A stretch of DNA of 64,000 nt from Candidatus Frackibacter sp. WG13. GTDB lineage: Bacteria > Bacillota > Halanaerobiia > Halobacteroidales > Acetohalobiaceae. Below the pieces are notes generated by a model. That model worked only from the letters and a program-made list of their open reading frames with translations, ran no database searches and had not been told where the DNA came from. Made by a program: the position numbers and the translations under genes. Positions 6,157 through 30,676 of the stretch are shown here, in pieces; positions within the stretch are counted from its first letter, which is position 1, and every line of letters begins with the position of its first letter. The DNA is taken from NCBI RefSeq assembly GCF_900114655.1, contig NZ_FOTT01000010.1, positions 1-64,000 of the forward strand. The letters run 5' to 3'.

Positions 6157-7101
6157 TTACACCAACACATTTATAACTACGAATAATCCCGTAGTTATAT
6201 ACATCAAATAAATCATATCTTGAATATCATTGCTTTCTAAGTCTCTAACTTTATCACCTAAATACTCTCTAAAGCTAGATTCACCATGATAATAATTGAG
6301 TCCACCTAGCCTGACTCCTAAGGCTCCTGCTACTGCTGCTTCGGGATAGCCTCCATTAGGACTAGGATGTTTTTTAGCGTCTCTTAATACCATCTTGAAA
6401 GATTTTAAACCATTTTTTCGTAACAAGAAAGCAGCTATTGGAAATAGCAAGCCACTAATCCTTGCGGGAATCAAATTAGCTAAATCATCAATCCGAGCTG
6501 CTGCCCAACCAAAGTATTGATATTGTTGGTTCTTATAACCTAACATTGAGTCGAGAGTATTAACGGCTTTATAGGCCATAGCCAAAGGTGCTCCTCCTAT
6601 AAAAGCATAGAATAATGGTGATAAAATACCATCTACTGTGTTTTCAGCTACTGTCTCTACTGTAGCCCTTACGACTTCACTTTCAGATAACTTTTCAGTG
6701 TCACGACCTACAATCCAATTTAGTCTCTCCCTAGCTTGCTGTAAGTCATTATTTAATAGTTGTTGATAGATTCCTTTACTAGCATCAGCTAAGCCTTTAA
6801 CCGATAAAGTAGTAGTCAATAATAATATTTTAATAATGATTCCTAACCATTCATTTATACTTGTGCTAATAGTTATAATTCCATAAGTTATCAACCAAGT
6901 GAAAAAAATCGTTAATAAAGCTAATAATATACCTGTAACTCTTTCTGCTAATTCAGTCTTAGCTATTGAACGTAATTGCTCTTCCCCCCAACTAATGAAC
7001 TTGCCAATAATCACTACTGGGTGAGGAATCCAATTAGGATCTCCAATTAATAAATCTAAAATTAAAGCTATAAATACTATAATAATAAATTGATTAAACA
7101 T
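6157..7101 (-). CDS. cbiB: Adenosylcobinamide-phosphate synthase (CbiB)
   Basis: This 314-residue integral membrane enzyme attaches aminopropanol phosphate to cobyric acid. Near the N-terminus it has LDLLIGDPNWIPHPVVIIGK, the hallmark of CbiB. Further motifs are VGRDT, ETVAENTVDGILSPLFYA, AYKAVNTLDSMLGY and PSPNGGYPEAAVAGALGVRLGG. Hydrophobic segments lie near 5-20, 55-80, 85-100, 165-185 and at the C-terminus. It starts inside the end of cobQ1 (25-bp overlap) with AGAGGG nine bases upstream of the ATG, consistent with coupled translation. Confidence 0.93.
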   Translation of the reverse strand: MFNQFIIIVFIALILDLLIGDPNWIPHPVVIIGKFISWGEEQLRSIAKTELAERVTGILLALLTIFFTWLITYGIITISTSINEWLGIIIKILLLTTTLSVKGLADASKGIYQQLLNNDLQQARERLNWIVGRDTEKLSESEVVRATVETVAENTVDGILSPLFYAFIGGAPLAMAYKAVNTLDSMLGYKNQQYQYFGWAAARIDDLANLIPARISGLLFPIAAFLLRKNGLKSFKMVLRDAKKHPSPNGGYPEAAVAGALGVRLGGLNYYHGESSFREYLGDKVRDLESNDIQDMIYLMYITTGLFVVINVLV

Positions 7102-8648
7102 GGGTCTAATCCCTCTTTATAATTATTAAAATCCATAATCTCATAGACTTTCTCAAAGTCTATACTCTCTCTTACAATTTCTGCTAATCTTTCATAAGCT
7201 GCTTCTCGTTTCTCAGCAGTAGAAATTTCTTGACTAAAATCAATTAATGGCAACCCTTTTTCTTGCCGTAAGCTATTTATAAATTTATATCTAAATTGAT
7301 CATTATCAAAAATACCATGCAAATAAGTCCCAAATAATTTCCCATCCTTGTTAATCGCCCCATCTAATCTCGACTCTTTCTTCCCTAAACTCTCTTCTAG
7401 TTTAATTAGAGGCTCTACTCCTTCGTTTAATTTTGTTTCGCCCATATGAATCTCATAACCACTAATGACTTTGTCCTTCAAGTTAGAAAAGAATCCATGA
7501 TCATTAGCAATTCTTCCTTTAACCTGGGTAGTTACCTTAGTAGGATTAAAAACTGTCTTAATATCTAGTAAACCCAAACCATTTATCGACTCTGTTGTTG
7601 CTTCTACTTGCTGTGGGTCCGAAACTTGCTTCCCTAACATCTGATACCCACCACAGATTCCTACTACGTGTACTCCCTCTGCAGCCAGGTTCTTTATTTC
7701 TTCATCATAACCTGCATCTTTTAAGTATTCTAAATCCTCAATCGTATTCTTACTACCAGGAATTATTATAGCGTCAGGCCTCCCAAGTGGCTCCCCTTTC
7801 TTAACATACCGAACCGATGTCTTTAATTCTTCTTCTAAAGGAGTAAAGTCAGTAAAATTAGAAATATGAGGTAGATAAAGAATAGCAATCTCTATCTCTC
7901 CATCTTGCTGCCCTTTTAATCTATGTTGAGGAATCGAATCTTCTTCAGGTATCTTAAAGTCATTAAAGTATGGTACAACCCCTAAGACCGGTACGCCAGT
8001 ATACTCTTCTATAAACTTTAATCCCGACTCTAATCTACTTATATCTCCTCTGAATTTATTAATAATAATCCCCTTAATTCTATTTGCTTCTGCTTCATTC
8101 AGTAATTTAAAAGTACCAATAATTGAAGCAAAAACCCCGCCGCGATCTATATCAGCCACTAAGATAACCGGAGCATCTGCTAATTCAGCAGCCTTCATAT
8201 TAACCAAATCCTGGTCTCGTAGATTAACTTCTGCTGGACTACCTGCTCCTTCCATAACTACTACTTCATAATCTCGCTTTAATCTAGCCAATGACTCTTT
8301 AATATATCCTAATCCTTCCTCATGGTGGTCAAAATATTCTTTAGCACTCATATTCTTCTTAGGGCGACCATGAATAATAACTTGTGAAGATGTGTCTTCG
8401 CGTGGCTTAAGTAAGATTGGATTCATATCTACTGTTGCTTCTACTTCTGCTGCCTCCGCTTGTACTGCTTGTGCTCTACCAATCTCCCCACCCTGTTTAG
8501 TAATATAGGAGTTTAAAGCCATATTCTGCGACTTAAAAGGCGCTACATGATAACCATCCTGAGCAAAGATTCGACAAAAAGCTGATGTCAAGACGCTCTT
8601 TCCTACATCTGAACCGGTTCCTTGTAACATAATTGTTTGGGCAGTCAT
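7077..8648 (-). CDS. cobQ: Cobyric acid synthase CobQ, canonical copy
   Basis: This 523-residue glutamine-dependent enzyme amidates the b, d, e and g side chains of adenosylcobyrinate diamide. The N-terminal ATP domain has the loop QGTGSDVGKS (9-18), then FKSQNMALNS (38-47), GGEIGRAQAVQAEAA and MNPILLKP, all matching the family pattern. EGAGSPAEVN and ADIDRGGVFAS follow. The C-terminal amidotransferase domain has the Cys in GICGGYQMLG and a His in TYLHGIFDND. It directly follows a second cobQ copy and overlaps cbiB by 25 bp. This copy is the better candidate for the standard reaction. Confidence 0.93.
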   Translation of the reverse strand: MTAQTIMLQGTGSDVGKSVLTSAFCRIFAQDGYHVAPFKSQNMALNSYITKQGGEIGRAQAVQAEAAEVEATVDMNPILLKPREDTSSQVIIHGRPKKNMSAKEYFDHHEEGLGYIKESLARLKRDYEVVVMEGAGSPAEVNLRDQDLVNMKAAELADAPVILVADIDRGGVFASIIGTFKLLNEAEANRIKGIIINKFRGDISRLESGLKFIEEYTGVPVLGVVPYFNDFKIPEEDSIPQHRLKGQQDGEIEIAILYLPHISNFTDFTPLEEELKTSVRYVKKGEPLGRPDAIIIPGSKNTIEDLEYLKDAGYDEEIKNLAAEGVHVVGICGGYQMLGKQVSDPQQVEATTESINGLGLLDIKTVFNPTKVTTQVKGRIANDHGFFSNLKDKVISGYEIHMGETKLNEGVEPLIKLEESLGKKESRLDGAINKDGKLFGTYLHGIFDNDQFRYKFINSLRQEKGLPLIDFSQEISTAEKREAAYERLAEIVRESIDFEKVYEIMDFNNYKEGLDPCLINLLL

Positions 8649-8674: not shown

Positions 8675-10198
8675 TTAAGCTATAATTTCATAAATCTTAT
8701 CTAAATCTAAATTTTCTCTAACAATCTCAGCTAACTTATTATAATTATCTTCTAATTTCCCTCTTACAGAAACCTCTGCTTCACTTAGTGATGATAATCC
8801 TTTTCGCTCTCGCAAAGTATTAATTAGATTTCTTCTAAATTGATCATTATTAAAAAGACCATGTAGATACGTTCCAAAAATCAAGCCATCTTTATTTACT
8901 GCGCCATCAATAAGATTAACTTCTTCTTCTCCTCGCTGCTTAATTCTGAAAGCAAAATCACTTTCATTATTATCTAGTAACTGACTCGTTCCCATATGAA
9001 TTTCATAACCTTCTAATTGATTTCCAATTAAATCATTAAAAAAGATACTGTCTCCTTCTATTTCTGCTTGCGCCTGAAAAGTTAATTTATTAGGGTTAAA
9101 TGTAGTTATAATTGGTAGCAAACCTAATCCATCTAGCTCTTCCCAATCTGACTCTGTTCCTGCTGGATCATAAAGCTTTTCACCTAACATCTGATAGCCA
9201 CCACAAATCCCAATAATCGGTACTTCTCTTTTGGCAGCAGCTAAAATATCTGTATCTAAACCACTCTGCCGTAAATAGATTAGATCATCTATTGTATTCT
9301 TAGTGCCAGGAATGATAATCAAATCAGGATCTCCTATTTCACCTTCTCTTTCTACATACCTCACTTCTGTTCGCGGTTCTCCCCTAAAGGCTTCTAAGTC
9401 ATTAAAGTTTGAAAGGTGAGGTAGCCTAATTACAGCAATCTCAATCTCTGCTTCTTCAGATTTCAAATCATTTAATGCTACTGAATCTTCTGCTGGAATT
9501 ATAAAGTCTTTAAAGTAAGGAATAACCCCTACAACCGGAATTCCAGTCTCTTCTTCAACGATTTCAACTCCTGATTTAAAGAGGTCTATATCTCCTCTAA
9601 ATTTATTAAAGATAATTCCGGCCACTAGTTCTCTCTCTTCAGGAGGTAAAAGCTCAATAGTTCCTACAACTGATGCTAAAGCTCCACCACGGTCTACATC
9701 TGCTACTAATAAGACCGGTGTTTCTTTCATCTTGGCTACATTCATATTAGCTAAATCTTTATCTTTAATATTGATTTCGGCTGGGCTTCCTGCTCCTTCT
9801 AATACTAAGATTTCAAAATCTTGACCTAACCTTTCTAAAGAATCTTTAATCTCATCTAAAGCATAATCACGATAGTCTTCATCTTGCTCTTTTAGACTTA
9901 AATCGGCTAAAGGACGACCATGCTTAATTATTTGAGAAACACCGTCTCCTTTCGGCTTTAATAAGAATGGCTGCATATCAACTGTAGCCTCTACTTGTGC
10001 TGCTTGAGCTTGAATAGCTTGTGCTGTTCCAATCTCTCCTCCATCTTTGGTTACATGTGAGTTCAAAGCCATATTCCAAGCCTTAAAAGGTGCAACTTTA
10101 TATCCATCTTGAGCAAAGATACGACAAAGTGCTGTAGTTAAGATGCTTTTGCCAACATTAGAAGCTGTCCCTTGTAGCATAATCGTTTTAGCCTCCAT
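8675..10198 (-). CDS. Second CobQ-like cobyric acid synthase paralogue (divergent)
   Basis: This 507-residue homologue of the neighbouring CobQ shares domain order, P-loop (QGTASNVGKS), amidotransferase Cys (GICGGYQMLG) and His (TYLHGLFNND), so the fold and both catalytic centres look intact. It departs at positions that are canonical in the other copy: S40-Q41 is A40-W41, R58 is T58, N76 is Q76, and the DTSSQV loop is DGVSQI. These lie in the N-terminal ATP/corrinoid domain, pointing to altered substrate choice. It is translated in the same operon, overlapping cobU by 11 bp. A functional duplicate is also possible. Confidence 0.85.
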   Translation of the reverse strand: MEAKTIMLQGTASNVGKSILTTALCRIFAQDGYKVAPFKAWNMALNSHVTKDGGEIGTAQAIQAQAAQVEATVDMQPFLLKPKGDGVSQIIKHGRPLADLSLKEQDEDYRDYALDEIKDSLERLGQDFEILVLEGAGSPAEINIKDKDLANMNVAKMKETPVLLVADVDRGGALASVVGTIELLPPEERELVAGIIFNKFRGDIDLFKSGVEIVEEETGIPVVGVIPYFKDFIIPAEDSVALNDLKSEEAEIEIAVIRLPHLSNFNDLEAFRGEPRTEVRYVEREGEIGDPDLIIIPGTKNTIDDLIYLRQSGLDTDILAAAKREVPIIGICGGYQMLGEKLYDPAGTESDWEELDGLGLLPIITTFNPNKLTFQAQAEIEGDSIFFNDLIGNQLEGYEIHMGTSQLLDNNESDFAFRIKQRGEEEVNLIDGAVNKDGLIFGTYLHGLFNNDQFRRNLINTLRERKGLSSLSEAEVSVRGKLEDNYNKLAEIVRENLDLDKIYEIIA

Positions 10199-18803: not shown

Positions 18804-20291
18804 TTATCTATAGTATATTTTAGTCAATCTCTTTAATCTATCAACCTTATCTTTATTCAACATCTCTTTTGTATAACGCCATTGCCAGTTACCGGCTGCT
18901 TCCCCGGGTGTGTTCATCCTTGCTTCACTACCTAAACCTAATATATCCTGCAAAGGAGCAATAGCAAATACAGCGACCGATGACCAAGCTAATCTTATTA
19001 AATCCCAACATATATTTTCATCATTCCCATTTAAATATTCACGAATATAATCCTTTATTTTAGCTTCTTTCTTCTGATACCAACCTAAAGTAGTATCATT
19101 ATCATGCGTTCCAGTATAGACAACAGAGTTTTTAGAATAATTATGAGGCAGATGTTCACTATCCTCCTTTGAGTTAAAACCAAACTGTAAAACCTGCATT
19201 CCTGGAAGCCCAAAGTGATCTCTTAGATCTTCTACTTTATCTGTAATAACTCCTAAGTCTTCAGCAATAATAGGCAGTTCACCTAATTCTTCTTTAACTT
19301 TATTAAAGAAATCTTTCCCGGGACCTGCCTTCCATTCCCCATTAACAGCAGTCTTTTCGCCATACGGCACAGCCCAGTAAGCAGCAAATCCCCGAAAGTG
19401 ATCAAGACGAATGATATCTACTAGTTCTAAAGTTGCTTCGAGTCTAGCTATCCACCATCTATATCCTTCTTCTTTTAATCTATCCCAATTGTATAATGGG
19501 TTCCCCCATAACTGACCAGTCTTACTAAAATAATCCGGAGGTACTCCTGCTACACTGACCGGTTCTCTATCTTTATTTAATTTAAATATATCTGGATTTG
19601 CCCATACACCAGCACTATCATAAGCAACAAAGATAGGAACATCACCAACAATCTTAATCCCATTTTGATTAGCATAAGCCTTCAATTCGCGCCATTGCTT
19701 AAAAAAGAGATACTGCATAAACTTCTGTAAATTTATTCTCTCCTGTAACTCTTCTTTATACTTCTTTAAAGCATCAGCTTCTCTTAACTTAATACTTTCT
19801 TCCCATTCAAACCACGGTTTACCCTTAAAATGTTCTTTTAAGGCCATAAAAGTAGCATAATTCTCTAACCATTCTCCTTGCTCCTGACAAAAACGAAAAA
19901 ACTTATTCTTTTCTAATTGCGAAGCAGTCTCTTTAAAGTTATAAAAAGCTTCTTCTAAAAGTGGCATCTTAAAATCAATTACTTGTCCATAATCTACTTT
20001 ACCTTCTACAAAATTAGCTTCCTTCGATAAATCATCTTCAGAAAGTAACCTAGACTCTTTTAATTTATCTAAACTAATTAAAAGAGGGTTGCCAGCAAAA
20101 GCAGAAAAAGATTGATAAGGAGAATCCCCATACCCAGTTGGTCCTAAAGGAAATATCTGCCACAACTTTTGTTCTGATAAAATCAAAAAGTCTATAAAAT
20201 CATAGGCTTCCTCCCCTAAAGAACCAATACCATACTTTCCAGGTAAAGAAGTTGGATGTAGTAAAATACCGCTTTCCCTTTTAAATTCCAT
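18804..20291 (-). CDS. malQ: 4-alpha-glucanotransferase (amylomaltase, GH77)
   Basis: This 495-residue cytoplasmic enzyme transfers glucan chains between maltodextrins. It starts RESGILLHPTSLPGKYGIGSLG; FPLGPTGYGDSPYQSFSAFAGN is the GH77 signature. The nucleophile Asp is in IIRLDHFRGF (about 295-304), the acid/base Glu in IIAEDLG and the third Asp in TGTHDNDT. It is the last gene of the alpha-glucan cluster, 44 bp from the amylase gene. It likely works with the phosphorylase to recycle short chains from glycogen. Confidence 0.94.
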   Translation of the reverse strand: MEFKRESGILLHPTSLPGKYGIGSLGEEAYDFIDFLILSEQKLWQIFPLGPTGYGDSPYQSFSAFAGNPLLISLDKLKESRLLSEDDLSKEANFVEGKVDYGQVIDFKMPLLEEAFYNFKETASQLEKNKFFRFCQEQGEWLENYATFMALKEHFKGKPWFEWEESIKLREADALKKYKEELQERINLQKFMQYLFFKQWRELKAYANQNGIKIVGDVPIFVAYDSAGVWANPDIFKLNKDREPVSVAGVPPDYFSKTGQLWGNPLYNWDRLKEEGYRWWIARLEATLELVDIIRLDHFRGFAAYWAVPYGEKTAVNGEWKAGPGKDFFNKVKEELGELPIIAEDLGVITDKVEDLRDHFGLPGMQVLQFGFNSKEDSEHLPHNYSKNSVVYTGTHDNDTTLGWYQKKEAKIKDYIREYLNGNDENICWDLIRLAWSSVAVFAIAPLQDILGLGSEARMNTPGEAAGNWQWRYTKEMLNKDKVDRLKRLTKIYYR

Positions 20292-20335: not shown

Positions 20336-22573
20336 TTATTTCAATTTAATAACTGCACCTGAAACTCCTGATACTCTAACTGCTAATCTACCATTCTTTA
20401 CTTCTACTTTTTGCTGATTATATAACTCTAAATACTGACCGTCATCTTTATCAACATCTAAGCTTAAACCGACTATATTTTCACTTACATTGATTATTAT
20501 AATTAGCTCTTCAGTCTTATATTTCCGTTTGAAGACATAAAGATGACTATCATCTACATCAACCTCCTCAATAGTACCTCGACGTAAAGCAACCTCTTTA
20601 TTTCTAATCTTAATTAATTTTTGATAATTTTCCAAAAGGTCATAGTCTGGTTTAGTATATCCTCTATCTTTCCAAATCATAGTTCGCCGACAATCAGACC
20701 CATCTTCACCTTCCATTCCAATTTCATCACCATAATAGACCATTGGTGCTCCTAAATATGTCATCTGAAAGAAAGCAGTTAATTTTAATCTTTCTTTATC
20801 TCCATCAATAACAGTTAAGTAACGACTAGTATCATGGCTTCCAATCAGATTAAACATAACTTGATTAGCTTGCTCCGGATACTGAAAGCGTAATTTACTT
20901 AATTCATCAGCAAATTCACTAGCATGCATCTCTCCTAATCCAATAAATCTAATAACAGCATCACGAAAACGATAATTCATTACTGCATCAAATTCATCTC
21001 CTTGTAGATAACCAGAGGCATCATCCCAAATTTCACCTACAATATATGCTTCTGGATTAATATCCTTAACAAACCTTCGCCACTCTTTCCAAAAGTCAGG
21101 AACTGCATCTTTAACCTCGTTGGGTACATCCAAACGCCAACCGTCAATACCTGCTGATAGATCCCCATTACCTTTAGGGTCCATCCATTTTTTTGTTACT
21201 TCAAATAGATAATCTTGCACCTCAGGATTTCTAACATTCAGTTCTGGAAGATGACCAAACCCCCACCAACATTCATAATTAGGAGGGTTATCCTCATCTT
21301 GTTCATATAATGGGATTATCGGTAAACTTTCAACATTATACCAGTCTAGATACCTAGAATTCTCTCCATTCTTAACAATATCTTGAAAAGCCCAATGTTC
21401 ATAACCAGTATGATTAAATACAGCATCAAATATAACCTTAATTCCTCGACTATGTAACTCTTCAATTAAGTTTATAAGATACTCCTCTGATGCTTCTAAG
21501 TCTCCTTTAATCGCTAAAGTATCATCTACTAGTTCATAACCGGCTGTATTATACTTATGATTAGAAGTACCCTTAAAAACGGGATTTAAATAAATAGCAT
21601 TAATGCCCAGCTTTTCAAGATAAGGTAGTTTTTTCTTAATTCCTTGCAAATCACCACCATAGAAGATATAATATCCCCCTTCAGGGTGAATACAATTATC
21701 ATCTTCAATAAATTCAGTCTCCTCCGTAACCACTGCTGGTACCGGGGGTAATCCCTCTTCCCATTTTGGAATTATAGCATCATGTAATTTCTCTTCATCT
21801 TTATAAATTTCAATCTTTTCTGGGTCATTATCTGGATTCCCATTATAAAAACGATCGGGAAAAATCTGATAAAATATAGCATCTCTAACCCATGCTGGTG
21901 TTTTAAAGATTTCTACTTGTGATAGGTCATACTGAAAAGGTTTAACCTCAACTAATTTACTAGCATCTTCGATTACACCTTGTTCATCATAGCAAATAAC
22001 TCTATCTCCATCTTTAATTTTAAAACAATAATCAAATTTAGAACTCTCCACTTCGATAATTGTTTTATAAAAATCAAAATACTCAAAACTTGCAAACTTC
22101 TCTAAATTAACCTCTCTTTCCTTACCATCATTATAACACAGAAGCACCTCTTCAATATCATTGCGTTTAGTCTGAAATCTGATAGAAATTTTATCTTCAG
22201 CTATAGGATTAGCAAAACAAACCTCTGTATTATCATGATATAAGGCATCAATAAGAATCTGGCCAGTTCCCTTAGTACCAGTATCCTTAAATCTTTTATC
22301 CCTTACTTGAATCACACCATTTCTAGTACCAAAACCATCATTCACATAATAATCGGCATTTGGTGGTTTAATCCAAGTCTCATCATTTATAATGAACTTA
22401 TATTGATACTCACCTGGACTCAATGTCAAAGTAGTTTCGTAAGTTCCATCGCCATTCTTATCAAATAAAGCTATTTCTTCTGGATTCCAATCATTAAAAT
22501 CACCAGCTAAGTTAACTTTCTCAACGGAAATAACCGGCTTATAAGTAAACGTAACTTCTACAGCCTCCGGCAT
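20336..22573 (-). CDS. GH13 alpha-glucan hydrolase with N-terminal starch-binding domains (neopullulanase/cyclomaltodextrinase-like)
   Basis: This 745-residue protein has no signal peptide. Residues about 5-95 form a CBM48/AMPK-like domain (LAGDFNDWNPEE, GEYQYKFIINDE). About 105-215 resemble a CBM34-type N-domain. The GH13 barrel has FYQIFPDRFYNG, DAVFNHTG, GWRLDVPNEV (nucleophile Asp), VGEIWDD (Glu) and IGSHDTSR (Asp), so all three catalytic acids are present. A C-terminal beta domain ends the protein. Cytoplasmic location and neighbours suggest intracellular glycogen or maltodextrin breakdown. Exact specificity (alpha-1,4, alpha-1,6 or cyclodextrin) cannot be read. Confidence 0.88.
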   Translation of the reverse strand: MPEAVEVTFTYKPVISVEKVNLAGDFNDWNPEEIALFDKNGDGTYETTLTLSPGEYQYKFIINDETWIKPPNADYYVNDGFGTRNGVIQVRDKRFKDTGTKGTGQILIDALYHDNTEVCFANPIAEDKISIRFQTKRNDIEEVLLCYNDGKEREVNLEKFASFEYFDFYKTIIEVESSKFDYCFKIKDGDRVICYDEQGVIEDASKLVEVKPFQYDLSQVEIFKTPAWVRDAIFYQIFPDRFYNGNPDNDPEKIEIYKDEEKLHDAIIPKWEEGLPPVPAVVTEETEFIEDDNCIHPEGGYYIFYGGDLQGIKKKLPYLEKLGINAIYLNPVFKGTSNHKYNTAGYELVDDTLAIKGDLEASEEYLINLIEELHSRGIKVIFDAVFNHTGYEHWAFQDIVKNGENSRYLDWYNVESLPIIPLYEQDEDNPPNYECWWGFGHLPELNVRNPEVQDYLFEVTKKWMDPKGNGDLSAGIDGWRLDVPNEVKDAVPDFWKEWRRFVKDINPEAYIVGEIWDDASGYLQGDEFDAVMNYRFRDAVIRFIGLGEMHASEFADELSKLRFQYPEQANQVMFNLIGSHDTSRYLTVIDGDKERLKLTAFFQMTYLGAPMVYYGDEIGMEGEDGSDCRRTMIWKDRGYTKPDYDLLENYQKLIKIRNKEVALRRGTIEEVDVDDSHLYVFKRKYKTEELIIIINVSENIVGLSLDVDKDDGQYLELYNQQKVEVKNGRLAVRVSGVSGAVIKLK

Positions 22574-22680: not shown

Positions 22681-24330
22681 TTAAAGCTTAATTTTATTCT
22701 TCAAAAGCTCGTACTTCTTCTTGCCAATCCCGGATACTTCTAATAATTCTTCTCTTTCTTTAAATCCTCCGCTCTCTTCTCTATAGTCTAACATGCTTTG
22801 AGCTAATACTGGTCCGATACTCTTTAATTTTTTTAATTTATTTATTGTCGCCTGATTAATATTAATCATTCTTTCCGACTCATCATCTAAATCTAATGTC
22901 TTATAATAAAGTTCAACATATTCCTGAGCAGAATTATTCCAACTAAAGTCCGACTTCATTGCTTGTACCACTATATCTTTCCAGATTTGGGGTTGGTGAT
23001 AAAATTTAATAGCACGCCTAATTGCTGCTAACATACTATGACCATTATAATGGGTAAAACTGAATCCATTACCTTCATTAGTTGCTTCATCATATGATGA
23101 AATAGTATCTTTTAAACCTCCAGTTTCTCTCACAACCGGAATAGTACCATACCTTAAACTAATCAACTGACTTAAACCACATGGCTCATATTTAGAAGGC
23201 ATTAAGAATATATCGCTACCAGCATAAATCTTCTTAGCTAAATTAGCATCATATTTAATATTAACCGCTACCTGTTTAGGATAGCGATGAGCTAATTCTT
23301 GTAAGAAACTTTCATATTTATTATCTCCAGTTCCTAAAATCACTAATTGAATCTCCTCTTGCATTAGTTCATCAATAACACCTTTAACTAGGTCAATTCC
23401 TTTTTGTTCAACTAATCTAGAAATAATGCTAATAACAGGAACTTCATCACTTGTTGGAAGACCCATATCTGTCTGTAGTTTTCGCTTATTCTTCATCTTT
23501 CCTTTTAAATCATCTAGACTATAATTATTATAAATATCTTGGTCCTTGGCTGGATTGTATTTTTTATAATCGATTCCATTAATGATACCGCATACATCAT
23601 TAGCGTTCATTCTAATTGCATAATCCAAGCCTTCACCGAATGCAGGTGTTTTAATCTCTTCAGCATAAGTCTCACTAACTGTACTAACCGTATCTGACAT
23701 ATTGATTCCCATCTTCATATAATTTATACAATTATTATGACGCAATACACCAGACTGCCAGTGACCCTCATCTAAACATAGAACATCACCTAAGATTTCT
23801 TTACCAAATTCTCCTTGATACTTTAAGTTATGAATTGTAAATACGGTCTTTATATCTTGATAAAAGTCATATTCTTGATAATTCTCTTTTAAAAAGATGC
23901 TTAAAGGTCCTGTCTGCCAGTCATTACAATGAATAATATCAGGTTTAAAATCAAGCTTAGGTAACATCTCTAAAACTGCTCGGCAAAAATAAGCGAACTG
24001 TATATGCCGGTCATCATTATCATAAAGGCTTTTCCGATGAAAGCAATTTTTGTTATCTATAAAGTATGTAGTTATACCTTCATACTCTAATTTATTAACT
24101 CCTACATAATTATTGCGCCAAGCTACTTTAGTTCTATAGTGTAAAAGATGTTCTGATTCTTCTATATAACTTTGGGGAATCTGTTTATATTCAGGCATGA
24201 CAACCCGAATGTCATGCCCTAACTCTTTAATTGCTTGCGGTAGTGAACTTGCTACATCAGCTAAGCCTCCTGTCTTTACAAAAGGGTCTACTTCCGAAAC
24301 CACAAATAAAACTTTTAATCTTTCTTTCAT
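22681..24330 (-). CDS. glgA: Glycogen synthase (GT5) with a C-terminal ComEA-like helix-hairpin-helix domain
   Basis: The first ~485 residues are a normal ADP-glucose glycogen synthase: SEVDPFVKTGGLADV at the N-terminus (ADP-glucose Lys), HCNDWQTGPL, FTIHNLKYQGEF, ISRLVEQKGIDL and PSKYEPCGLSQL. About 61 further residues (ININQATINKL, IGPVLAQSMLDYR, VSGIGKKKYELL) form two helix-hairpin-helix motifs like those in ComEA. The usual enzyme ends near 480 residues, so this is an added domain, read in one uninterrupted frame. A GTG at 24339 is a possible alternative start; the ATG at 24330 is preferred. It follows glgC by 26 bp. Confidence 0.92.
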   Translation of the reverse strand: MKERLKVLFVVSEVDPFVKTGGLADVASSLPQAIKELGHDIRVVMPEYKQIPQSYIEESEHLLHYRTKVAWRNNYVGVNKLEYEGITTYFIDNKNCFHRKSLYDNDDRHIQFAYFCRAVLEMLPKLDFKPDIIHCNDWQTGPLSIFLKENYQEYDFYQDIKTVFTIHNLKYQGEFGKEILGDVLCLDEGHWQSGVLRHNNCINYMKMGINMSDTVSTVSETYAEEIKTPAFGEGLDYAIRMNANDVCGIINGIDYKKYNPAKDQDIYNNYSLDDLKGKMKNKRKLQTDMGLPTSDEVPVISIISRLVEQKGIDLVKGVIDELMQEEIQLVILGTGDNKYESFLQELAHRYPKQVAVNIKYDANLAKKIYAGSDIFLMPSKYEPCGLSQLISLRYGTIPVVRETGGLKDTISSYDEATNEGNGFSFTHYNGHSMLAAIRRAIKFYHQPQIWKDIVVQAMKSDFSWNNSAQEYVELYYKTLDLDDESERMININQATINKLKKLKSIGPVLAQSMLDYREESGGFKEREELLEVSGIGKKKYELLKNKIKL

Positions 24331-24356
24331 TATACTCACCCACTTATAATCAATTA

Positions 24357-25610
24357 TTAACTACGCGGTCTAATTGTACTTCCGCTGACGAGTTCGTTCT
24401 CACTAAAGTCATCCTCTTGTACCGAAGGAAAGATTCGACAGTTACCTCCAACTAAAGTCCCCTCCGGAATCCTAACTCCTTTTCCTACTACAGTTAGACC
24501 ATCATGTACAATTTCTGGCCGTTCAAAGTTAGCTCTTTGGATACTACAGGAACCTATCTGAACATCATTACCTATCGTAACTTCTTTATCAATTATACTT
24601 TTACAGACAAAGGCTCTTTTCTTTACTTTAGTATCATTAAAGATAACTGAATCTTTAACTACAGCATCTTCTTCAATAAATACTCCTGGAGAAATGACGG
24701 AGTTAATTACTTGTCCATTAATAATTGCCCCATTAGAAACCAAGCTTTTATTAGCTTCTCCTCGCAATCCAAACTTCACTGGAGGTTTCCTCTCACTACG
24801 AGTATGTAACTGCCACTCTTCATCATATAGATTCATTTCTGGCATAGATACTGTTAAATCTAAGTTTGCTTGCCAATAAGCTTCAAGGGTACCCACATCA
24901 CGCCAATACCCTTGATGCTCATAAGCATAAACATCAGCATCATCAATCATCCTTGGGATAATATGATGCCCAAAATCTGAGTTATTTTGATTACAAAACT
25001 CTTCTAATTTATTAACTAGAGATTCTTTACTAAAAACATAAATCCCCATCGATGCCAAATCACTAGGTGGCTCATCTGGTTTTTCAACAAAATCTGTAAT
25101 CTTCATCTCCTCATTAACATCTAAAATCCCAAATTGACTAGCATTCTTCATTGGGACTCGCTTAACCGCAATTGTTAAGTCAGCATCTTTTTCTTTATGT
25201 TTAGCAACCATCTTTGCATAATCCATCTTGTAAATATGATCTCCGGACAAGATAATAATCTGCTCCGGGTCAACTTCTTTAATATAATTAATATTACGAT
25301 AGACAGCATGAGCTGTTCCCTTATACCAACCGCCTTCTCTACCAGTATAAGGCGGCAAAATAGTTACTCCACCAAACTGCCGGTCAAGGTCCCACGGCTT
25401 ACCAATTCCAATATGCTTATTTAACGATCTAGGTAAATACTGAGTTAAGACCCCTACAGTATTTATTCCTGAGTTAACACAATTACTTAAAGTAAAATCA
25501 ATAAGACGATACTTTCCACCAAAAGGAACACTAGGTTTAGCCCTATCTTCTGATAAAATATCTAGTCTAGTACCTCTACCTCCAGCTAGAATTAATGCTA
25601 AAACATTCAT
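24357..25610 (-). CDS. glgC: Glucose-1-phosphate adenylyltransferase
   Basis: This 417-residue enzyme makes ADP-glucose for Glg[30 protein letters not shown] is spread over the N-terminus as the nucleotide-binding motif. [37 protein letters not shown] and VEKPDEP follow. The C-terminal part (about 290-400) is a left-handed beta-helix of hexapeptide repeats. It lies between the GH57 branching enzyme and glgA. Allosteric control is usual for the family but the effector cannot be read here. Confidence 0.95.
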
Positions 25611-25656: not shown

Positions 25657-27252
25657 CTACCTACTATATACTTGATAATCAATCTCTGGGAATATATTAT
25701 TCTTAGCTTCTAATTTCGCTAACCAATCTTCATCTATACTATCTGTTTTTACTTGATTATAAAGATTAAAGAAAGTATTGATATGCGCTTTGGTCCGCTT
25801 AACTGCATATTCTACCATTGTGCCTGTCTTCATGATAAATGCCCAATCACTACTTTGAGCTAATAATAGTTCACGTGCTGCTTGATTTAAGGCTCGTTTA
25901 GTTAATGAATCCGGAGCTGAATAATCAGTTGCTAATTCAGTCATCTTCTCTGCTGCTTGGTGTAAGTGGCGATAGATCCAATCATTACTACTATCTAGCC
26001 AAACATCATTGTAACCATTAGCACCCCAACTACATAATGGTGGTTGACAGACTTGGTTCTCTGGGTATTCTTCTAAGTAGTCAATCGGTGAAATTAAATC
26101 TATAACTTCTTCCTGGGAAGCACTCTTGATTGCATGATATAAAAATTCAGGTCCTTCATACCACCAATGTCCAAATAATTCTGCATCATACGGCGCGACA
26201 AGAATCGGTTTGCGGTCTATTAAATCATCTAAATATTCGATCTGTCCTATCCGTTTACTAATAAAGTCTTTCGCATGTCTTTTAGCTTTGCTTGATGCTA
26301 ATTGTGGATTATAAAAGTCTTTATTTTCTAAATCACATTCATCACTTGTAATGCGATGATATTTAATACCAGTATTGATACGAATCTCGTTATTATGAAT
26401 ATAAGGCTTGATGTAATCTAATGGCAAATCAAATCCTATGTCGCGATAATACTCACGATAGTCATAGTCACCAGGATATCCTTCTTGAGTACTCCAAACC
26501 TGTTTTGCAGACTCATTATCTCTTCCAAAAGCAGCTACCCCTGATGGTGTATAAATCGGAGCAAATGCTCCATATTTAGGTTGTGGGTTGGCATATAAGA
26601 CTCCATGTGTATCAAGCATAAAGAATCTAATATCATATTCCTTCAAAGTTTCATCTAAACCTGGATAATATCCACACTCTGGTAACCAAATTCCTTTCGG
26701 TTTACTACCTAGATGCTTTTTGTGAGTCTTGATTGCTAATTCAATCTGTGCTCTCACAGCCTCTGGATACTCTTGCATTAGTGGTAAATAGCCATGGGTT
26801 GCCCCGCAGGTGATTAATTCTAAATAACCTAAATCTTGAAACTTTTTAAAGGCTGTAATTAGATTATTATTATATTTTTTATTAAAAGTTTCTTTAGCTT
26901 GTTGAAATTTAGATAAGTACATGTGAGCTATTTGATTTAGATGTGGTTGTTCTTGAGTTCGTTCTAATTCTTTATAACTTAACTCAATTAACTGATTAAG
27001 ATGCTTAATGTAGCGTTGTTGAAGTAATGAATCGGTTAACATAGAAATTAATGGAGGACTCAATGACATAGTTAATCTATAATCTACATTTTCTTTATAA
27101 AGTCTTTCAAAATAATTTATTAATGGAATATAGGTCTCAGTAATTGCTTCATAAAACCATCGTTCTTCTAAAAATTCCTCGTAATCCGGATGACGTACAA
27201 AAGGCAGATGAGCATGTAATACAAATGACAGATAACCCTTCTCTTTTGACAA
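25657..27252 (-). CDS. 1,4-alpha-glucan branching enzyme, GH57 family
   Basis: This 531-residue protein carries the GH57 signature near its start (SFVLHAHLPFVRHPDYEEFLEERW). The nucleophile Glu is in IWLPECGYYPG (about 193-203) and the general acid Asp in VAPYDAELFGHWW (about 348-360). A helical DUF1957-type C-terminal region is present (LLAQSSDWAFIM). It introduces alpha-1,6 branches into glycogen, a job done by GH13 GlgB in many other bacteria; no GlgB is seen here. It sits in the same cluster as glgC and glgA. Confidence 0.9.
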   Translation of the reverse strand: MSKEKGYLSFVLHAHLPFVRHPDYEEFLEERWFYEAITETYIPLINYFERLYKENVDYRLTMSLSPPLISMLTDSLLQQRYIKHLNQLIELSYKELERTQEQPHLNQIAHMYLSKFQQAKETFNKKYNNNLITAFKKFQDLGYLELITCGATHGYLPLMQEYPEAVRAQIELAIKTHKKHLGSKPKGIWLPECGYYPGLDETLKEYDIRFFMLDTHGVLYANPQPKYGAFAPIYTPSGVAAFGRDNESAKQVWSTQEGYPGDYDYREYYRDIGFDLPLDYIKPYIHNNEIRINTGIKYHRITSDECDLENKDFYNPQLASSKAKRHAKDFISKRIGQIEYLDDLIDRKPILVAPYDAELFGHWWYEGPEFLYHAIKSASQEEVIDLISPIDYLEEYPENQVCQPPLCSWGANGYNDVWLDSSNDWIYRHLHQAAEKMTELATDYSAPDSLTKRALNQAARELLLAQSSDWAFIMKTGTMVEYAVKRTKAHINTFFNLYNQVKTDSIDEDWLAKLEAKNNIFPEIDYQVYSR

Positions 27253-27285: not shown

Positions 27286-27933
27286 CTAAAGTGAACTATA
27301 GCCTACTCTTAAATCGGACTTCTTAGTAATTTCTTTGATCTCTTTCATTAAATCTAAAGAACTATTATTCTTTAACTCACCAACACCAGAAAGAATATAT
27401 ATCCTTTCTAAGTCTTCATTAACTGTCATCCATTCTTCTGCAACTATATCACTAACATCATTAGCTGGTGTCTTTACAGAATTAGACTTAAGGATTGAAT
27501 AAAAATCTTGATCTTTAGTCAAAATGCCTAACTCTACTTTATATTTATGATCTGGTGTTAAACCGCCAAGATACCAACTATCATGGTCTTTAGTAATATC
27601 AATATCATAATAGTTATCCTGATCATTAATCGTTAAATCATAAACTCTTAAGATTAAAGGGGCTTCTTCTATCTCATTATAATTAGACTGAGAAAGAATA
27701 TTTCTTAACCTTTCATCTGTATACTCCCAGTACATATGAATCCATTTAGGATTCTTCACCTGTAACATAAGCTTATTAACATTATACTTTTTAGGTAGTG
27801 GATATTGGTTTTCAAGGTTCTGTAAAGGTTTATCTTGGTGACCTGAGTTGCCATGTGTCCCGCTAGTTCTATCCCCACTTGTAGCTGAACCTTCTAACTG
27901 CAAATCTTTTAACCCCAACTCCTCTTTCTTCAA
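27286..27933 (-). CDS. DUF4912 domain-containing protein
   Basis: This 215-residue protein has a low-complexity N-terminal tail (about 1-45) and then a domain starting YPLPKKYNVNKLMLQVKNPKWIHMYWEY-like sequence, the DUF4912 opening with its conserved aromatic cluster. Later parts read LRVYDLT, DSWYLGGLTPDHKYKVELG and VAEEWMTVN. There is no signal peptide. The family is often found beside GH57 branching enzymes, as here (33 bp apart), suggesting a role in glycogen handling. The biochemical function is not known. Confidence 0.75.
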   Translation of the reverse strand: MKKEELGLKDLQLEGSATSGDRTSGTHGNSGHQDKPLQNLENQYPLPKKYNVNKLMLQVKNPKWIHMYWEYTDERLRNILSQSNYNEIEEAPLILRVYDLTINDQDNYYDIDITKDHDSWYLGGLTPDHKYKVELGILTKDQDFYSILKSNSVKTPANDVSDIVAEEWMTVNEDLERIYILSGVGELKNNSSLDLMKEIKEITKKSDLRVGYSSL

Positions 27934-28058: not shown

Positions 28059-30602
28059 CTAGATCCATTTAATCAACCCCAGTTCATGTTTGTGACTCAA
28101 CTTTACTTGATTAGGAATGACTCTAAAAGTATATTTATGGGTTCCAGCCTCTTTTAATTCTACTTCTGCTGAATAAAGATAACTATTATTTTCTAATTCT
28201 TCTTTTAACCCCATTGTAGCCGTCATAATCTCACCCTCTTTAACTCCCGATACCACATACGCTTCCACTGTTACATCTTCTGGAGTCAAAGTGCCTAATC
28301 CAATCTCAACTTCTAGATTAATCTTATCCCTAATATTAAACTTACCTTGTTCTCCTTGGTTAGGAGAAGTAATCGTTATATCTTGCCAATTACGCTCTAA
28401 CTTTTCTTTCCAAGCTGTTAACTCCTTAGCCTTTTTATAGTCTTCTTTCTTAAGTTGCTTACCTCGTTCCATGGCTGGCATATATAATTTTCGCACATAT
28501 TCCTTCAACATTCGGTCTGTACTATATGTAGCGCCTGTTGAAGCTATTGCCTCTTTCATATAATTAATCCAGTGAACTGGCAACCCTTCTTCACCAGTAT
28601 CATAATATAGAGGAACAATTTTTTCCTCTAAAGTTTTATATAAGGATTGGCTATCTATTAAATCCTGTTCTTCATCATCGCGATATTCTAATCCTTCTTC
28701 ACGACCAATGACCCAACCATTTCTACCATTATAACCTTCACACCACCAACCGTCTAAGACACTTAAGTTCAACCCGCCATTAATTGCTACTTTTTGACCA
28801 CTCGTTCCACTAGCCTCTAAAGGACGTCGAGGATTATTAAGCCATACATCTACTCCTTGCACTAAATGACGAGCCATTTCTATATCATAATCCTCTAAAA
28901 GGATTATCTTATCCTTAAACCTATCACTTTCAGCTATATTATGAATCTTTTTAATTAACTTTTGGCCTGGCATATCTGCAGGATGTGCTTTACCAGCAAA
29001 GATAAATTGTACTTCTTTCCCATTCTGATTACAAATCTTATCTAATCTATCTAGGTCTTCAAAAAGCAAATCTGCCCTTTTATAAGTAGCAAAACGCCTT
29101 GAAAAACCAACTGTTAAGATATCTTCATGCAATCTATTCTTATGCAATTCTTCATCTTTTGTATACCTTTTTTTTCGTTCTAAATCAGATTGATAAATAT
29201 AATCAATCATCTTCCTCTTTAAATCCTGATGAGTTCGCCAAAATATATCATTAGGAATCTTTTTAACTTCTTCCCAAACTTCTTGATAACTAATTCTATC
29301 TTCCCAATCATCAACAAAAAATTCATTAAATAACTCTTGCCATTCTGTAGCTAGCCAACTCAAGGTATGCACACCATTAGTTATATATGTAATTGGATTT
29401 TCATTAGCGGGCACTCCTGACCAAAATTCTTCCCACATCTCGCTAGCAACTTGACCATGTAATTCACTGACACCATTCACAAACCGAGCTAAATATAACC
29501 CAAGAACTGTCAAGCAAAATTCTTCATTCTCCTTTATTCTTCCTAAATTTAAGAAATCTTCTTTACTTAAGCCTAGTTTTTGCCAATAATCTTTAAAATA
29601 GTTCTCTTTTAAATTATTTGGAAACCTTTCATTTCCAGCTGGCACTGGAGTATGAGTAGTAAACACTGTATTGGCAGCTACTGATTCTAACGCCTGTCTA
29701 AAACCTAAATCTTCTTCTTTAACTAATTGCTTAATTCTTTCGAGTCCTAAATAGACTGAATGCCCTTCATTCATATGCCATAGTATTGGCGAATACCCCA
29801 TGGCCTGTAAGGCTTTAGCCCCTCCAATTCCTAGAATAATCTCTTGTGAAATGCGCATCTCTTGGTCGCCGCCATACAGCTGCGCTGTTAACTCTCTATC
29901 TGCTTTACTATTTTCTGGAATATTTGTATCTAATAGATAAATAGACACTCTCCCCACCTCAACCTGCCAAACCTTAATGAATACTTCTCTTTCTGCTAAA
30001 TTTACACTAACTATTAGGTCTCTACCTTCATTATCCTTTACAGTTGTTATTGGCAATTTATTCAAACTTAATTCAGGATATAATTCCTTTTGCCAACCAT
30101 TCTCGTCAATCCTCTGTTTGAAATAGCCATGATGATAAAGTAATCCTACTCCTACTAGTGGCAGGCCAAGGTCACTAGCAGATTTACAGTGATCACCAGA
30201 TAGAACTCCTAATCCCCCTGAATAAATCGGTAGTGTTTCATGTAAGCCGAATTCTGTAGAAAAATAAGCCATTACCTGGTTATCATCTCGTGAAAAGGAA
30301 TAATTCTGATTAAACCATGTATCTTCAGATTTTAAATAATCATTAAACTCCTGCATCACTCGTTTATATTTCTTAATGAAATAATCTTCTTCACTAATTG
30401 CTTCTAATTCCTCATAAGGAACTTTTGCTAATAACTCCACGGGATTCTTATCAACTTCCACCCATGCTTCTTCATCAATCCTCTTAAATAACTCTTCTGC
30501 TTCTTCATTCCAAGACCACCATAGGTTATAAGCTAAATCTTTTAATCCTTTAATCTTTGCTGGTAACTTAGGCACTACTGCTAGACTACCATAAAAATTC
30601 AT
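28059..30602 (-). CDS. glgP: Alpha-glucan (glycogen) phosphorylase, GT35
   Basis: This 847-residue phosphorylase releases glucose-1-phosphate from glycogen. It is the short-type family with an N-terminal DUF3417-like region (LAYNLWWSWNEEAEELF). STEFGLHETLPIYSGGLGVLSGDH, HMNEGHSVYLGLERI and THTPVPAGNERF follow. The PLP region is RRPLEASGTSGQKVAINGG. The frame can begin at 30614 (GTG) or 30608; AGAGGTG is best spaced for the ATG at 30602, which also matches the family start MNFYGSL. It appears to be the first gene of the glucan cluster. Confidence 0.93.
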   Translation of the reverse strand: MNFYGSLAVVPKLPAKIKGLKDLAYNLWWSWNEEAEELFKRIDEEAWVEVDKNPVELLAKVPYEELEAISEEDYFIKKYKRVMQEFNDYLKSEDTWFNQNYSFSRDDNQVMAYFSTEFGLHETLPIYSGGLGVLSGDHCKSASDLGLPLVGVGLLYHHGYFKQRIDENGWQKELYPELSLNKLPITTVKDNEGRDLIVSVNLAEREVFIKVWQVEVGRVSIYLLDTNIPENSKADRELTAQLYGGDQEMRISQEIILGIGGAKALQAMGYSPILWHMNEGHSVYLGLERIKQLVKEEDLGFRQALESVAANTVFTTHTPVPAGNERFPNNLKENYFKDYWQKLGLSKEDFLNLGRIKENEEFCLTVLGLYLARFVNGVSELHGQVASEMWEEFWSGVPANENPITYITNGVHTLSWLATEWQELFNEFFVDDWEDRISYQEVWEEVKKIPNDIFWRTHQDLKRKMIDYIYQSDLERKKRYTKDEELHKNRLHEDILTVGFSRRFATYKRADLLFEDLDRLDKICNQNGKEVQFIFAGKAHPADMPGQKLIKKIHNIAESDRFKDKIILLEDYDIEMARHLVQGVDVWLNNPRRPLEASGTSGQKVAINGGLNLSVLDGWWCEGYNGRNGWVIGREEGLEYRDDEEQDLIDSQSLYKTLEEKIVPLYYDTGEEGLPVHWINYMKEAIASTGATYSTDRMLKEYVRKLYMPAMERGKQLKKEDYKKAKELTAWKEKLERNWQDITITSPNQGEQGKFNIRDKINLEVEIGLGTLTPEDVTVEAYVVSGVKEGEIMTATMGLKEELENNSYLYSAEVELKEAGTHKYTFRVIPNQVKLSHKHELGLIKWI

Positions 30603-30676
30603 ATCCATTATCACCTCTTTTGAGATTAATTATTCTTTGAAATTTAATTATGAACTTCGCTTGATTAGTAATATTC

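Follow-up and report, generated by a model that had tools for sequence, protein, structure and literature searches.

A glycogen synthase with a conserved ComEA-like helix-hairpin-helix tail as a candidate DNA-tethered enzyme in one bacterial class

In the 64,000-nucleotide stretch of DNA analysed here (the window), a minus-strand gene encodes a glycogen synthase (GlgA) followed by a ComEA-like double helix-hairpin-helix (HhH) domain, raising the question of what such a domain does on an enzyme that makes polysaccharide. ComEA-type domains bind DNA without sequence preference, and ComEA-like HhH modules are known mostly as additions to proteins that handle nucleic acids, to which fusion with a polysaccharide synthase is an exception. 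Our analysis agrees with the original prediction that the pairing is an odd one. The gene and its parts are as follows:

22681..24339, minus strand: glgA-HhH gene, 552 aa from GTG or 549 aa from the ATG at 24330
22900..24318, minus strand: GlgA catalytic part, residues 8-480 (NF001898 match; fold of E. coli GlgA)
22876..22899, minus strand: short flexible linker, residues 481-488 (gap between the GlgA and HHH_3 matches; low pLDDT)
22690..22875, minus strand: ComEA-type (HhH)2 domain, HHH_3, residues 489-550 (Pfam match and fold)
22813..22821, minus strand: hairpin 1, SIG, residues 507-509 (sequence and alignment)
22714..22731, minus strand: hairpin 2, GIGKKK, residues 537-542 (sequence and alignment)

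The GlgA part and the tail share a single open frame (ORF 22681-24339, minus strand) with no stop between them. The former matched NCBIfam NF001898 (684 bits, cut-off 603, residues 8-480), TIGR02095 (577 bits, cut-off 328), and Pfam Glyco_transf_5 (E 3.7e-85), and the catalytic motifs KxGGL and EPCG were present among the invariant columns of the GlgA alignment. Judged by its sequence, the catalytic part is an ordinary and complete ADP-glucose glycogen synthase, for which glucan elongation is predicted. The tail past the GlgA domain comprises 72 residues with an HhH portion of about 62, close to the extension of about 61 residues first described, and contains both hairpins named in the original prediction (SIGPVLA and GIGKKK). 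It was matched as a single domain by Pfam HHH_3 (67.2 bits, cut-off 27; E 1.4e-18; residues 489-550) and by TIGR00426 for the ComEA HhH repeat region (56.2 bits, cut-off 53.1; residues 486-550). Since GlgA occupies the N-terminal end and the whole-protein comE model TIGR01259 scored 62.7 bits on the window protein, below its cut-off of 152, the tail is ComEA-like and the protein itself is no ComEA. The genome also carries a separate ComEA-like gene (C31:606-791, 225 aa frame), so the GlgA tail is not the only competence-type HhH of the cell.

An AlphaFold model of the whole protein had a mean pLDDT of 92.4, and the sole stretch below 50 was the linker (positions 483-485 in the 549-residue numbering). 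The GlgA part of the model matched the E. coli GlgA structures 2qzs and 3cop, while the tail folded on its own (pLDDT 92.7) gave four helices joined by loops that superimposed on Geobacillus ComEA (8dss; Z 13.7, rmsd 0.9 over 63 residues, 43% identity). The next structural matches were Thermus 2duy and the HhH part of Tex, and the matches also included PsbU and GspK, relatives of the HhH fold that work in protein complexes.

The gene is embedded in a minus-strand glycogen operon in the order phosphorylase, DUF4912, GH57, glgC, glgA-HhH, amylase, and malQ, the neighbors being:

28059..30614, minus strand: glycogen phosphorylase with DUF3417
27286..27933, minus strand: DUF4912 protein, operon neighbor, fused behind GlgA-HhH in genome G001
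25657..27252, minus strand: GH57 branching enzyme, operon neighbor
24357..25610, minus strand: glgC, ADP-glucose pyrophosphorylase, operon neighbor, named from sequence
20336..22573, minus strand: alpha-amylase family enzyme with AMPK1-CBM/CBM48 (glycogen-binding module)
18804..20291, minus strand: malQ, 4-alpha-glucanotransferase

DUF4912 often adjoins glg genes in families f1 (that of the window) and f2, and genome G001 encodes a 782 aa chain (L008:769-3114, minus strand) with the order GlgA-HhH-DUF4912, in which HHH_3 and DUF4912 both scored above their cut-offs. DUF4912 may be a glucan-related module; it was rejected as an obligate partner of the tail as it was missing at the f3, f7, f8, and f9 loci examined. 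Elsewhere in the window, tandem CobQ/CobB-like genes (7077-8648 and 8675-10198, minus strand) lie next to cobalamin-type genes, both encoding CbiA plus GATase_3 proteins (523 and 507 aa) of similar length and N-terminal sequence.

The class to which the window belongs consists of anaerobic, mostly halophilic bacteria. A survey of 59 of its genomes identified GlgA in 45. Of these, 31 genomes, spread over six families and including closed ones, encoded a tailed GlgA, with 32 such genes in all. The fusion was carried by 3/5 genomes in f1, 2/8 in f2, 14/14 in f3, 5/5 in f7, 1/1 in f8, and 6/8 in f9. HHH_3 was detected in 27/27 of the fused and 0/9 of the unfused GlgA proteins scanned. The fusion called from the window, supported there by the NF001898, TIGR00426, and HHH_3 matches, thus recurs in 31 further GlgA genes of the class and is kept across families, the opposite of the absence from close relatives that was named beforehand as grounds for discarding it; a frameshift or assembly artefact is ruled out by the same genes. 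The remaining 14 genomes held only tail-less GlgA, which indicates that the tail is dispensable over evolution and counts against a role as a DNA tether.

Outside the class, no fusion was found in 398 sampled genomes of the same phylum among the GlgA matches listed, nearly all of those with a frame above 530 aa having been retrieved and read. A profile spanning the end of GlgA and the tail gave no fusion in two further phyla (296 and 244 genomes), a weak test of absence as this profile shows some fusions, that of the window included, by its GlgA half alone. When the tail served as the only query, the first of those phyla (198 genomes) and a third phylum (188 genomes) yielded long HhH frames; eight of these, of 630-707 aa, were read and rejected as fusions as none matched GlgA, and the one scanned for domains displayed PLDc_2, SNase, and HHH_3. 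A scan of genome contigs gave only distant GlgA, with matches stopping at residue 481 or earlier. The fusion is therefore likely restricted to one bacterial class. In the paper library searched, no article described a glycogen synthase that carries an HhH domain. The architecture is probably already listed by database domain pipelines, and what is new is the conservation of the fusion and its unexplained biology, not the domains.

In a GlgA tree built without the tail, all fused genes fell inside a class-level clade (46 genes, support 100/100) where the tailed and tail-less labels required at least seven changes, a pattern that a single early gain followed by several losses could explain, as could multiple gains. 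GlgA tails and ComEAs were intermixed in an HhH tree of 59 columns, in which a single clade of all GlgA tails was not rejected (p-AU 0.296). Downstream of the shorter glgA genes, no frameshifted remains of a tail were found (a match spanning a stop in genome G005 continues into the start of a DUF4912 gene) and no stand-alone HhH gene was seen next to unfused glgA at the loci examined. Genomes G011 and G012 each encode one tailed and one tail-less GlgA in separate operons, and G028 a tailed GlgA with a distant tail-less one; such co-occurrence suggests a division of labor and, by inference, that catalysis itself does not require the tail.

Over 16 close pairs, pooled dN/dS came to 0.060 in the catalytic part, 0.371 in the linker, and 0.133 in the HhH, showing that purifying selection acts on the tail. 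Averaged across all pairs, identity was 63, 19, and 48% for the same three parts, and the linker varied from about 2 to 131 residues among fused GlgA. A domain that folds and is selected on its own, attached by a linker free to vary, has the anatomy of a tether and not of a fixed regulatory domain, so the tethering already hinted at in the original prediction is the favored reading. In the linkers of g15, the largest genus, a short (I/L)K(V/I)(Y/F)xP motif, possibly a short linear binding motif, occurs amid otherwise variable sequence (loci L031, L032, L033, L035, L036, L055-L057, L059, L060, and L062), and the GlgA of genome G013 (L023:1501-3522, plus strand) has a linker of about 130 residues that is very acidic and then lysine-rich ahead of the HhH.

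The explanation we consider best, with a probability of about 45% and drawn from sequence and models, is that the tail docks glycogen synthase on DNA. In this proposal, an ordinary ADP-glucose synthase would have acquired a C-terminal docking module on a flexible linker. The two GhG hairpins of the module, together with the basic side of hairpin 2, would most likely grip the backbone of DNA irrespective of sequence, keeping the enzyme, and hence the start of the glycogen granule, at the nucleoid. We infer DNA as the ligand and positioning, as opposed to altered catalysis, as the effect. The wider proposal that the class positions glycogen synthesis on the chromosome via a recruited competence-type HhH, with granules starting at the nucleoid and perhaps being co-partitioned at division, is rather unlikely. 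Why a glycogen synthase should bind DNA has no biochemical explanation that we know of, which counts against the tether.

The tail alignment holds evidence on both sides. The GhG was kept in hairpin 1 of 29/29 tails and hairpin 2 of 27/29, and the Asn of ININxA in 29/29; the shortest piece of Pasteurellaceae ComE1 found to bind dsDNA consists of VNINTA and the two HhH motifs (PMC2601033). Mean net charge was +4.3 per approximately 60 aa in the tails, -1.6 per 60 aa in the GlgA part, and +0.45 in the ComEA of the same genomes, and tails were more basic than the ComEA of their own genome (paired test p 0.013, 15 genomes, uncorrected for relatedness), although a net charge of 0 or below in 7/31 tails counts against a DNA ligand. 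Column 51, which touches a phosphate of the DNA in the ComEA-DNA model (Gs T196), was K/R in 26/29 tails vs. T in 19/20 ComEAs. Against DNA stands column 21, the position of the ComEA lysine (Bs K164/Gs K166) whose replacement by alanine abolished DNA binding (PMC9747964), placed here by counting back from the end of the aligned B. subtilis sequence. It was never K or R in the tails, a point absent from the original prediction, being Y or F in 26/31 (0/20 class ComEAs) and L in the f1 and f2 tails, including that of the window. Nevertheless, K or R was present in only 10/20 class ComEAs, the lysine being absent from the other 10, and a tyrosine occupied this column in two further HhH proteins from the class and in the HhH tails of six PLD-type nuclease-like proteins from another phylum, to which one GlgA tail was 49-56% identical. 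The frequent lack of the lysine in class ComEAs and the tyrosine of the PLD-type tails mean that its loss is no proof against DNA binding. These PLD-type proteins (L196-L200 and L202) are 644-661 aa, one of them shown to consist of PLDc_2, SNase, and HHH_3.

The missing lysine is also the first argument for a different ligand, with the tail docking on a protein (a glycogen enzyme, a granule-associated protein, or itself) so as to cluster enzymes or anchor them to a cell structure. The related folds PsbU and GspK among the structural matches, the fibronectin bound by the same ComE1 segment that binds DNA (PMC2601033), and the physical coupling of glycogen modules in the GlgA-HhH-DUF4912 chain of G001 all speak for it, and as relatives of the fold bind proteins, it stays a serious rival that we hold to be possible. 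The conserved GhG and ININxA and the basic residues gained in hairpin 2 would nonetheless be superfluous for pure protein contact, and no candidate partner was common to all fused genomes, DUF4912 included. The column 21 aromatic could alternatively stack on sugar rings and make the HhH a carbohydrate-binding module for glucan, as its absence from class ComEAs might suggest; this is very improbable, given the leucine of the f1 and f2 tails, the conserved GhG hairpins, and the identical tyrosine in PLD-type tails and two class HhH proteins, which weakens the aromatic as a GlgA-specific carbohydrate mark. Nor do we know of any carbohydrate-binding family with the HhH fold.

Two explanations dispense with a ligand. 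A tail that mainly helps the enzyme to fold, stay soluble, or remain stable in a saline cytoplasm would suit a mostly halophilic class. A ComEA-like HhH at the C-terminal end of a DNase does confer salt tolerance, but this most likely reflects the DNA affinity of an enzyme that cuts DNA (PMC4777378), and the case also serves as a precedent for the DNA tether. With specific hairpin residues kept in the tails and relatives of the same class managing without a tail, a stabilizing role of this kind is improbable. Least probable is a passenger arising from chance read-through into a functionless ComEA piece, for which the patchy occurrence in f1 and f2 could be cited; 32 genes in 31 genomes, some of them closed, and the HhH dN/dS of 0.133 argue against it.

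The fusion is accessible to tests in cultured species, and either of the leading ligands would matter. If DNA is bound, this would be the first DNA-tethered glycogen synthase, relevant to where bacterial glycogen granules form, and if protein is bound, the HhH fold would have a new role in binding proteins.

Compared with known systems, the fused protein has the catalytic part of bacterial GlgA (GT5; NF001898, E. coli 2qzs), including the KTGGL and EPCGL motifs and the glg operon setting, and differs by a tail of about 70-200 residues with (HhH)2 that is missing in unfused relatives. It shares with ComEA (HHH_3; 8dss, 2duy) the tail fold, ININxA, both GhG hairpins, and a C-terminal place on a flexible linker, whereas the N-terminal part of ComEA is absent, the key DNA lysine is replaced by Y/F/L, and hairpin 2 is mostly K-x-K/R compared to E-K-T in ComEA. 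DNaseTA-type and PLD-type nucleases likewise join an enzyme to a C-terminal ComEA-like HhH (PMC4777378), with the difference that those enzymes act on nucleic acid and GlgA does not. PsbU of photosystem II has a related double HhH fold (Z approximately 6) in a non-DNA setting, with low sequence similarity to the tail (Pfam E 0.035). In plants, where the starch granule initiation factors MFP1 and PTST are separate proteins of unrelated folds in plastids, the likeness is in the idea alone, that a DNA- or membrane-associated protein sets where glucan synthesis starts.
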